From positions 1 through 64,000 of the forward strand of contig NZ_RJKN01000007.1 of the NCBI RefSeq assembly GCF_003751265.1: 64,000 bases of DNA. The letters are read 5' to 3'. The position numbers were made by a program, and so were the translations under genes. Positions 5,982 to 54,966 of the stretch are shown piece after piece; position 1 is the first letter of the stretch; each line of letters starts with the position of its first letter. Under the pieces are notes generated by a model. The model searched no databases and had not been told where the DNA came from. It saw only the letters and a program-made list of their open reading frames with translations. This DNA is from Pseudokineococcus lusitanus (lineage in GTDB: Bacteria > Actinomycetota > Actinomycetes > Actinomycetales > Quadrisphaeraceae).

Positions 5982-5986
5982 GCGGC

Positions 5987-6034
5987 GTCAGGGCGTCAGG
6001 GCGTCGGGGCGTCAGGGCGTCAGGGCGTCGGGTC
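5987..6034. repeat. 24-bp duplication (six 8-bp GTCAGGGC-type units) over the SDR gene's stop codon
   Basis: Six 8-bp units form two 24-bp copies (5987-6010 and 6011-6034). The right copy contains the last codons and the TGA stop of the minus-strand SDR gene (6020-6022). The left copy repeats that segment just past the stop. Confidence 0.9.
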
Positions 6035-13672: not shown

Positions 13673-13703
13673 GCGTCCGGGCGGCCGGGCCTGGCCGGGC
13701 CGC

Positions 13704-13747
13704 TCAGCCCTCGAGCCCGGGCCGGTCAGCCCTCGAGCCCGGCCGCC
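13704..13747. repeat. 22-bp tandem duplication of the EboF-like gene's 3' end
   Basis: The unit TCAGCCCTCGAGCCCGG plus five bases occurs at 13704 and again at 13726. The second copy is the reverse complement of the last codons and TGA of the minus-strand phosphodiesterase gene; the first lies just beyond the stop. Confidence 0.85.
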
Positions 13748-52571: not shown

Positions 52572-53234
52572 GTGGCGGACGACGGGACGACGGGCGGCGC
52601 GACCGGCGGGGACGGCGCACCGGCCCGCAGGGCGGCGTCGCGGCGGCGGCCCGAGCAGCCGGTGCTCGTCGTGGCCGACGCCGCCGCCTGGCGCGCGTGG
52701 CTCGACGAGCACGAGGGCACCTCGGACGGCGTCTGGCTGACGCTCGCGCGCAAGGACGCCGTGGACGCCGGGCGCGGCCCGACGACCCTGCGGTACGCCG
52801 CCGCGCTCGACGAGGCCCTCTGCAGCGGCTGGGTGGACGGCCAGGCGCGGGGCGGCGACGCCGACACCTACGGCCAGCGCTTCACGCCGCGGCGGGCACG
52901 CAGCCTGTGGTCGGCGCGCAACGTCACCTACGTGGCGCGCCTGCGGGACGAGGGGCGGATGCGCCCGCGCGGCGAGGCGGAGGTGACGCGGGCGCAGGCC
53001 GACGGCCGGTGGGACCGGGCCTACGCCGGCCCGGCCACCATGGCGGTGCCGGACGACCTGCGGGCGGCGCTCGACGCCGAGCCCGCGCTCGCGGACGCCT
53101 TCGCGGCGCTCGGCGGCCAGGACCGCTACGCCGCCTGCCACCGCGTCGTCACGGCGACGACGCCGGCCGTCCGGGCCCGGCGGGTGGCCGCGGTGCTCGA
53201 CGGGCTGCGGGCCGGCACGTCGGACGGTGCGTGA
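52572..53234 (+). CDS. YdeI/OmpD-associated family protein
   Basis: A 220-residue cytoplasmic protein. After a ~25-residue Gly/Ala/Arg leader the conserved core reads DAAAWRAWLDEHEGTSDGVW, LRYAAALDEALCSGWVDGQA, TYGQRFTPRRARSLWSARNV and a helical C-terminus, matching the YdeI/OmpD-associated (BOF-like) family, whose function is poorly defined. GTG 52572 has GGGGAG two to three bases upstream. It starts nine bases after the XylR-type gene and may be co-transcribed with it. Confidence 0.85.
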   Translation: MADDGTTGGATGGDGAPARRAASRRRPEQPVLVVADAAAWRAWLDEHEGTSDGVWLTLARKDAVDAGRGPTTLRYAAALDEALCSGWVDGQARGGDADTYGQRFTPRRARSLWSARNVTYVARLRDEGRMRPRGEAEVTRAQADGRWDRAYAGPATMAVPDDLRAALDAEPALADAFAALGGQDRYAACHRVVTATTPAVRARRVAAVLDGLRAGTSDGA

Positions 53235-53236
53235 CG

Positions 53237-53274
53237 CGCCGCAGGCCCGCCCCCGGGGGGACGGGCCTGCGGCG
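53237..53274. terminator. 13-bp GC hairpin terminator
   Basis: CGCCGCAGGCCCG (53237-53249) pairs with CGGGCCTGCGGCG (53262-53274), between the YdeI-like gene and the convergent WrbA-like gene. Confidence 0.75.
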
Positions 53275-53288
53275 AGCGGCGGGGGTCG

Positions 53289-53360
53289 TCAGCCGTCGAG
53301 GCGAGGTCTCCCTCAGCCGTCGAGGCGACGGCTCCCTCAGCCGTTCAGGCGACGGCTCAC
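53289..53360. repeat. Three 24-bp tandem repeats covering the WrbA-like gene's stop codon
   Basis: Units start at 53289, 53313 and 53337, each beginning TCAGCCGTCGAGGCGA or a close variant. The third contains the last codons and TGA of the minus-strand WrbA-like gene; the other two extend past the stop. Confidence 0.92.
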
Positions 53361-53921
53361 CGTGAGGGCGCGGGTGACCATGTGGTCGAGCGCGCCGTTG
53401 GTGACGTCGTCGACCGGCTGGTCGTTGCCGCCGCCGGTGACGTGGCCGACGCCGTAGGGGTTGCCGTCGACGAACTTCGAGCCGTCGGTGTAGCCGGGGC
53501 TCACGACGATGCCGCCGAAGTGGTGGATGGTCGTGTAGAGCGAGAGGAGCACGGCCTCCTGGCCGCCGTGGAGGGTCTGCGAGGCGGTGAAGCCCGCGTA
53601 GACCTTGTCCGCGAGCTGGCCCTGCGCCCACTGCGCGCCGAGGCTGTCGATGAAGACCTTGAGGCGGCCGGCCACGTTGCCGTAGCGCGACGGGGTGCCG
53701 AAGAGCACGACGTCGGCCCACACGACGTCGTCGGCGGTGGGCTGCTGGGGGCGCTCGTCCGAGCCGGGCTGGCCCTGCGCGTCCTCGCGGCCGACGGCCA
53801 GGAGGCGGACCTCGGCGCCCTGCGCCTCGGCGGTGGCGGCCAGGCGCCGGGCCATCGTGTCGATGGTGCCGGTGACGGAGTAGTAGATGATCGCGACCTT
53901 GGTCGCGGGGGCGTCGGCCAT
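53337..53921 (-). CDS. WrbA-like NAD(P)H:quinone oxidoreductase (flavodoxin fold)
   Basis: A 194-residue FMN protein that reduces quinones by two electrons. The FMN phosphate loop is YYSVTGTIDTMARRLA. The isoalloxazine contact is FGTPSRYGNVAG, followed by LADKVYAGFTASQTLHGGQE and TTIHHFGGIVVSPGYTD, all typical of the WrbA/PnpB group. ATG 53921 has GGAGG upstream. It lies 46 bases downstream of the EamA gene on the same strand, with a near-palindrome in the gap that could be the operator of a redox-sensing regulator. Its 3' end is part of a tandem repeat. Confidence 0.9.
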   Translation of the reverse strand: MADAPATKVAIIYYSVTGTIDTMARRLAATAEAQGAEVRLLAVGREDAQGQPGSDERPQQPTADDVVWADVVLFGTPSRYGNVAGRLKVFIDSLGAQWAQGQLADKVYAGFTASQTLHGGQEAVLLSLYTTIHHFGGIVVSPGYTDGSKFVDGNPYGVGHVTGGGNDQPVDDVTNGALDHMVTRALTVSRRLNG

Positions 53922-53952
53922 GGCTGCCTCCGGGGCGTCGAGGGCGGAAGTT

Positions 53953-53970
53953 GAGGGTTGTACTACCTCA
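53953..53970. promoter_or_regulatory. Near-palindrome upstream of the WrbA-like gene
   Basis: GGTTGTACTACC (53956-53967) is symmetric at 10 of 12 positions around GTAC and is flanked by GAG/CTC. It lies between the EamA stop and the WrbA-like start in an AT-richer patch. A quinone-responsive HxlR/MarR site is possible; no such regulator gene is nearby. Confidence 0.35.
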
Positions 53971-54966
53971 CTGTACGCGACGGCGGCGACGCCCGCGCGT
54001 CCTGCGCCCGGTCGTGCGCGAGACGTCCTCCGGACGGGCCGCGCCGACGTCGCCCGGCGTCGGGGCGGCGTCGCGGCGGCGGCTGAGCGCCACGCCCGCG
54101 CTCGCGGCGCTGACGAGCGCGAGCGCGACGACCTCCGTGGGGGCGAGGAGCTGCCCGAGCACGACGAGGCCGGCCAGGGCGGCGGCCAGCGGCTGCAGGC
54201 TCATGAGGACGGCGTAGACGCGCGTGGGCAGGCGGCGCAGGGCGGCGAGGTCGGCGCCGTAGGGGACGACGGACGACAGCAGCGCGACCGCGAGGACGGC
54301 GAGGAGGAGGCCCGGCCGCTCGACGACCCCGAGCGCGCCCCCGACGCCGAAGGGCGCCACGAGCACCGCGCCCACGAGGAGGGAGACGGCGAGCCCGCCG
54401 GTGCCCGGCACGAGCCGGCCGACCCGGGCGCTCGCGAGGATGTAGCCCGCCCAGCAGGCCCCGGCCGCGGCGGCGAGCACGAGGCCGAGGACGTCGAGGC
54501 CCTCGCCTGCGCCGGCGTCGCCGAGGGCCCGCGCGCCGAGGAGGACGACGCCCGCGAGGGCGAGCCCCGACCAGAGGACGTCCTGCGCCCGCCGCGCCTG
54601 CACGACCGACAGGACGAGCGGGCCGAGCAGCTCGACGGACACGGCGACGCCGAGCGGCAGCCGGTCGAGCGAGAGGTAGAAGAGGCCGTTCATCCCGGCC
54701 ATCGCGAGGCCGAGGAGCGCGCACCCGCCCAGCGCGCCCGCCGACCAGCGGTGCACGGCCGGCCGCAGGACGGCGGCGAGCAGCAGGCCCGCCAGCAGCA
54801 GCCGCAGGAGCACGGTGCCCGGCGCGCCGAGGACGGGGAACAGCGTGCTCGCGACGGCGCTGCCGGTCTGGACGCTCCCGATGGACACCGCCATGAGCAG
54901 CGGGGCGGGCACCCGGTCGACAGGGCCGGGGGCGGGCGTCGTCGTCGCGCCCGGCGGGGAGGTCAC
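53968..54966 (-). CDS. EamA family exporter (RhtA-like)
   Basis: A 332-residue ten-helix DMT-family permease, most like threonine/homoserine exporter RhtA: VSIGSVQTGSAVASTLFPVL in helix 1, RLPLGVAVSVELLGPLVL in the fourth helix region, and VLMSLQPLAAALAGLVVLGQ near the end. The C-terminus is a long Arg-rich cytoplasmic tail (TTGRRTRGRRRRRV). GTG 54966 is the start. The WrbA-like gene follows on the same strand. The substrate cannot be fixed from sequence. Confidence 0.88.
   Translation of the reverse strand: MTSPPGATTTPAPGPVDRVPAPLLMAVSIGSVQTGSAVASTLFPVLGAPGTVLLRLLLAGLLLAAVLRPAVHRWSAGALGGCALLGLAMAGMNGLFYLSLDRLPLGVAVSVELLGPLVLSVVQARRAQDVLWSGLALAGVVLLGARALGDAGAGEGLDVLGLVLAAAAGACWAGYILASARVGRLVPGTGGLAVSLLVGAVLVAPFGVGGALGVVERPGLLLAVLAVALLSSVVPYGADLAALRRLPTRVYAVLMSLQPLAAALAGLVVLGQLLAPTEVVALALVSAASAGVALSRRRDAAPTPGDVGAARPEDVSRTTGRRTRGRRRRRVQ

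Follow-up and report, generated by a model that had tools for sequence, protein, structure and literature searches.

The window analysed here is a stretch of 64,000 nucleotides (GC content 77%) from Pseudokineococcus lusitanus, whose genome (G000) amounts to 3.84 Mb in 19 contigs. On its minus strand, between coordinates 53,337 and 53,921, lies a gene coding for a 194-residue protein of the flavodoxin fold, which matches the Pfam family FMN_red (PF03358) with an E value of 3e-15, above the cut-off, and two NCBIfam WrbA/quinone oxidoreductase models at 1e-32 and 8e-31, both below the curated cut-offs. We refer to it as WrbA-like because the WrbA models are matched, although below those cut-offs. 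A plus-strand gene for an OmdA/YdeI-domain protein (52,572 to 53,234, start codon uncertain) converges on it, and a terminator-like 17-pair hairpin without a T tract is situated between the two (53,237 to 53,274). The stop codon of the wrbA gene lies within three head-to-tail 24-bp units that extend from 53,289 to 53,360. Coding on the plus strand over this array was considered and set aside; the open reading frame at 53,227 to 53,457 crosses both gene ends and was never called as a gene.

TRF reports the array at 53,289 to 53,358 with a period of 24, 2.9 copies, 91% matches and a score of 112. At a lag of 24 the array matches itself at 43 of 48 bases, against a window mean of 18.2 (standard deviation 3.9), and no site within the window scores higher at this lag. 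In the sense of wrbA, units 1, 2, and 3 read GTGAGCCGTCGCCTGAACGGCTGA, GGGAGCCGTCGCCTCGACGGCTGA, and GGGAGACCTCGCCTCGACGGCTGA, and counting from these letters gives three substitutions between units 1 and 2, two between units 2 and 3, and five between units 1 and 3. All three lie on the minus strand. Unit 1, next to the gene (53,337 to 53,360), contains the codons for VSRRLNG and the TGA stop; unit 2 (53,313 to 53,336) is an in-frame copy with TGA at its end and a perfect 8-bp hairpin with a 3-nt loop; and unit 3 (53,289 to 53,312) is the outermost in-frame copy, also ending in TGA, in which the hairpin is lost. Because the unit length of 24 is divisible by three, the stop is in frame in every unit. 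A sequence-only reading had described the stop-codon segment as duplicated in tandem, with three 24-bp units running past the stop, RRLNG and the stop in the gene-proximal unit, and outer units that had diverged. TRF and the lag-24 match confirm the units, their letters place RRLNG and the stop as described, and the copies differ at two to five of 24 bases. The array scores 64 in the site scan described below, in which none of 707 shuffled stop regions reaches 30, and it exceeds chance expectation.

Comparison was made with three genomes of the same genus (G001 to G003, taken as Pseudokineococcus marinus JCM 14547 and two uncultured Pseudokineococcus sp.). Their wrbA orthologues are 88% identical; at the homologous position they terminate in VSRRLTS* or VSRKLTA*, and none of the three has the 24-bp array at the wrbA end. 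Because these orthologues end there without an array, unit 1 represents the ancestral gene end, which bears out the view of the gene-proximal unit as the original one, and units 2 and 3 are lineage-specific additions. The leucine codon is CTC in the outer units and in the relatives, and CTG in unit 1. At fourfold sites this gene differs from its genus relatives at 24–37% of positions; the array copies, with differences at two to five of 24 bases, are thus in keeping with an origin of the array after the genus split.

The unit is confined to a single locus. Allowing two mismatches or fewer, the 24-bp unit has no match in the genome outside the array, the only matches being two within the array itself, and none in 18 relatives, and for the array as a whole the best similarity at any other genomic position has an E value of 0.003 over 27 bp. 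A dispersed genomic repeat unrelated to gene ends, the finding that would have told against the earlier claim, is therefore not what we see, and membership of a dispersed family of the MIRU or REP/BIME kind is ruled out. Mycobacterial MIRU/VNTR loci do resemble the wrbA array in being tandem arrays at gene borders in a high-GC actinomycete, but MIRUs are reported as a dispersed family present at 41 places in M. tuberculosis (PMC2734929), whereas the wrbA unit is restricted to a single place. REP elements likewise share with the unit a palindromic core outside genes, but are described as being of high copy number throughout the genome (PMC3733652), which the wrbA unit is not.

We are confident that the array is a neutral, single-locus minisatellite that arose in this lineage after the genus split, although we infer both its cause, which is presumably slippage, and its neutrality, which is probable. 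After the split from the genus relatives, the 24-bp segment with the last wrbA codons and the TGA would have been duplicated in tandem to give three copies, with replication slippage on a GC-rich and partly self-complementary segment as their likely source. A duplication that begins within a gene and finishes beyond its stop repeats the stop codon, and translation still ends in the first copy. Because translation ends at this first stop, the protein is unchanged whatever the length of the unit, and the survival of the array is explained by the gene-proximal copy, which preserves the stop, so that the duplication is tolerated. The copies would now be drifting apart.

The folding of the units is one point on which this account can be questioned. 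Unit 2 forms its perfect 8-bp hairpin at −13.5 kcal/mol (z −3.0 relative to shuffles), unit 1 folds more weakly (−8.6, z −2.4), and the 72-nt array as a whole gives a better fold than 198 of 200 shuffled versions (z −2.8). This would suit a selected hairpin and counts against a neutral origin. Under a hypothesis in which selection maintains the units as RNA hairpins, for stabilising the 3' end of the wrbA mRNA or for aiding termination between the convergent genes, unit 2 and the fold of the array would be the evidence. However, the hairpin is lost in unit 3 (−5.2, z +0.33 relative to shuffles), the gene ends of the same-genus relatives do not form it, and the array is already adjoined by the 17-pair hairpin, which at −41.3 kcal/mol is far stronger. 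The T tract is also absent: no intrinsic terminator of stem and T tract was found at 53,000 to 54,100, in a scan that is blind to the T-poor terminators of high-GC bacteria, and the sole Rfam match at E values up to 1 lies elsewhere and below the gathering score. We therefore regard selection for hairpins as improbable. The sequence-only reading had also raised an RNA structure affecting wrbA mRNA stability; the predicted folding of units 1 and 2 faintly suggests such an effect, and the lost hairpin of the outermost unit speaks against it.

In G001 and G002 the OmdA gene and wrbA are separated by genes for TrkH and TrkA, and G003 has a 90% TrkA orthologue approximately 4 kb from wrbA; the window genome has only a 45% match, located elsewhere. 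The TrkH/TrkA pair is absent from the window at 53,234 to 53,289 (compare G001:C60, G002:C5, and G003:C13), most simply because it was lost in this lineage. The array could be a scar left when a rearrangement removed the pair from this site, as the position of the pair in G001 and G002, and the TrkA orthologue near wrbA in G003, would allow, but the hairpin that separates the array from the OmdA gene argues otherwise. A perfect 16-bp hairpin begins 14 nt beyond the wrbA stop in both G001 and G002 (a 7-bp one begins at 22 nt in G003), and the 17-pair hairpin begins 62 nt beyond it here, a difference of 48 nt, which is precisely the length of two units and is what insertion of the array alone in front of an old hairpin would produce. 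The sequence likeness of the hairpins is nonetheless weak, with shuffles scoring as well in 29 of 500 cases for G002, 79 of 500 for G001, and 196 of 500 for G003. A connection between the TrkH/TrkA loss and the array is unlikely, and we give the scar explanation very little credence.

To place the array among others we scanned the window together with 40 stretches of 20 kb, a sample of 864 kb that is 87% coding and has 746 genes called by a home-made composition caller, whose stops are more dependable than its starts. Arrays scoring at least 30 span six of 707 stops (711 were called, the others being near stretch ends), one of 718 starts, one of 742 gene midpoints, and none of the 707 shuffled stops; between genes they span 12 of 409 midpoints. 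At one of the six stops (L142) the array overlaps no more than the final base of the stop codon. Stops differ from intergenic midpoints with p 0.012, from starts with p 0.068, and from gene midpoints with p 0.064. The frequency of arrays is thus highest in intergenic DNA, falls at stops, and is lowest at starts and within genes, a gradient that is based on few arrays. Nor do TRF arrays overlap stops in this sample in excess of random placement: 11, 8, 8, and 5 were seen at score thresholds of 50, 60, 70, and 85, against 17.9, 11.5, 7.0, and 4.8 expected. The special tie of duplications to gene ends that had been suggested is therefore not upheld (8 overlaps against 11.5 at a TRF score of at least 60, and fewer hits at stops than at intergenic midpoints), and a duplication process specific to gene ends is not needed, since random placement accounts for the overlaps. 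Gene ends are not a target for arrays but are tolerant of them, because the stop is retained in the first copy, which leaves the protein as it was.

The window itself departs from this pattern. Arrays span three of its 51 stops, compared with three of the 656 stops sampled outside it (p 0.006), although the window was picked after such cases had been listed, and this excess is a point against the neutral minisatellite reading, which does not explain it. It is conceivable, but we think very doubtful, that stop-spanning duplications are locally favoured here, and that hairpin-bearing copies provide an evolvable 3' end that would tune the transcript between the convergent genes through copy number. 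The further stop-spanning arrays in the window are at 5,984 to 6,032 (8/24-bp units) and 13,695 to 13,746 (22-bp units).

Stop-spanning arrays also occur at other wrbA-like genes. In an orthologue comparison with the best 80 of 327 relatives, 94 of 97 loci were used (L023 to L025 were dropped, and at least six contigs are present twice); at six of the 94 the alignment ended before residue 185 and the next in-frame stop was taken as the gene end. Arrays scoring at least 30 span the stop at four of these 94 loci, including the window locus, each with a unit of its own: the others are L018, from the same family (14 bp), L096, from Actinotalea soli (14 bp), and L063, from Streptomyces carminius (11 bp). 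The presence of unrelated arrays at three other loci among the 94 suggests that the accident recurs with different units. The 14-bp units of L018 lie around the stop of the wrbA-like gene there and are unrelated to those of the window. Short tandem repeats of the GGGCCCTCGACCC and GGGGCCCTCGCCCT types, equally unrelated to the window array, are present 3' of the wrbA stop in L011 and L012.

The in-frame TGA that a multiple of three places at the end of each unit might be taken as a fail-safe against stop-codon read-through, but we find this barely credible, as a 24-bp unit yields in-frame stops without selection, the array is absent from the three genus relatives, translations of G001 to G003 show no in-frame stop kept just 3' of the wrbA stop, and a eubacterial survey reports finding no selection for additional stops (PMC6764699).

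The genus contains a separate type of array, which looks more unusual than the one at the wrbA stop. Among 53 mostly non-coding TRF arrays scoring at least 60, nine lie between genes, repeat with a period of 40–42 bp, and have a palindromic core in each unit, such as CGAACAGGCGCCTGTTCG. Arrays of this period are located at L126:5487-5721, L126:11729-11912, L144:4587-4774, L145:12531-12798, L129:7062-7201, L113:19702-19815, L115:4710-4855, L116:198-301, L119:9321-9433, L135:7247-7365, and L128:6816-6982. Paired cores of the CGAACAGGCGCCTGTTCG type give 17 matches in the window genome (one site being counted on both strands), 16 at a period of 41 and one at 42, and none in 18 relatives; the reversed control also gave none. 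A different core, GGCGAGTCGTCGCC, is paired at a period of 40–43 in 33, 19, and 3 matches in G001, G002, and G003, respectively, and in none in the window genome. The spacing of approximately 41 bp is thus constant in four genomes of the genus and the core differs between species. Non-coding satellite families are described as rare in prokaryotes in one survey (PMC6749651). In G001 (P. marinus) a 41-bp palindrome array (L146:845-975, with cores at 876, 917, and 958) extends from the TAG stop of the OmdA gene; it occupies the same intergenic stretch as the wrbA array of the window genome, but is of a different type. Kinship of the wrbA array with these palindrome arrays was rejected, as both period and core differ.

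The wrbA array, with head-to-tail copies of one unit and the stop codon inside, belongs with the stop-overlapping minisatellites and VNTRs that have already been described, and is known here from one genome of its species. In Yersinia pestis, 10 of 88 VNTR loci are reported to overlap stop codons and six to overlap starts, and the authors expect changes at stops to have less effect than those at starts, on account of the reading frame (PMC3689786). Those loci resemble the wrbA array in having short tandem units with a stop codon inside the repeat; they differ in organism and units, and strain variation is known for them (PMC3689786), whereas the array described here comes from a single genome. 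On its own the array has little significance, although it could be used to tell strains apart. More generally, when a stop codon is included in a tandem duplication the protein shows no trace of it, and short arrays therefore persist at gene ends, if less often than between genes.
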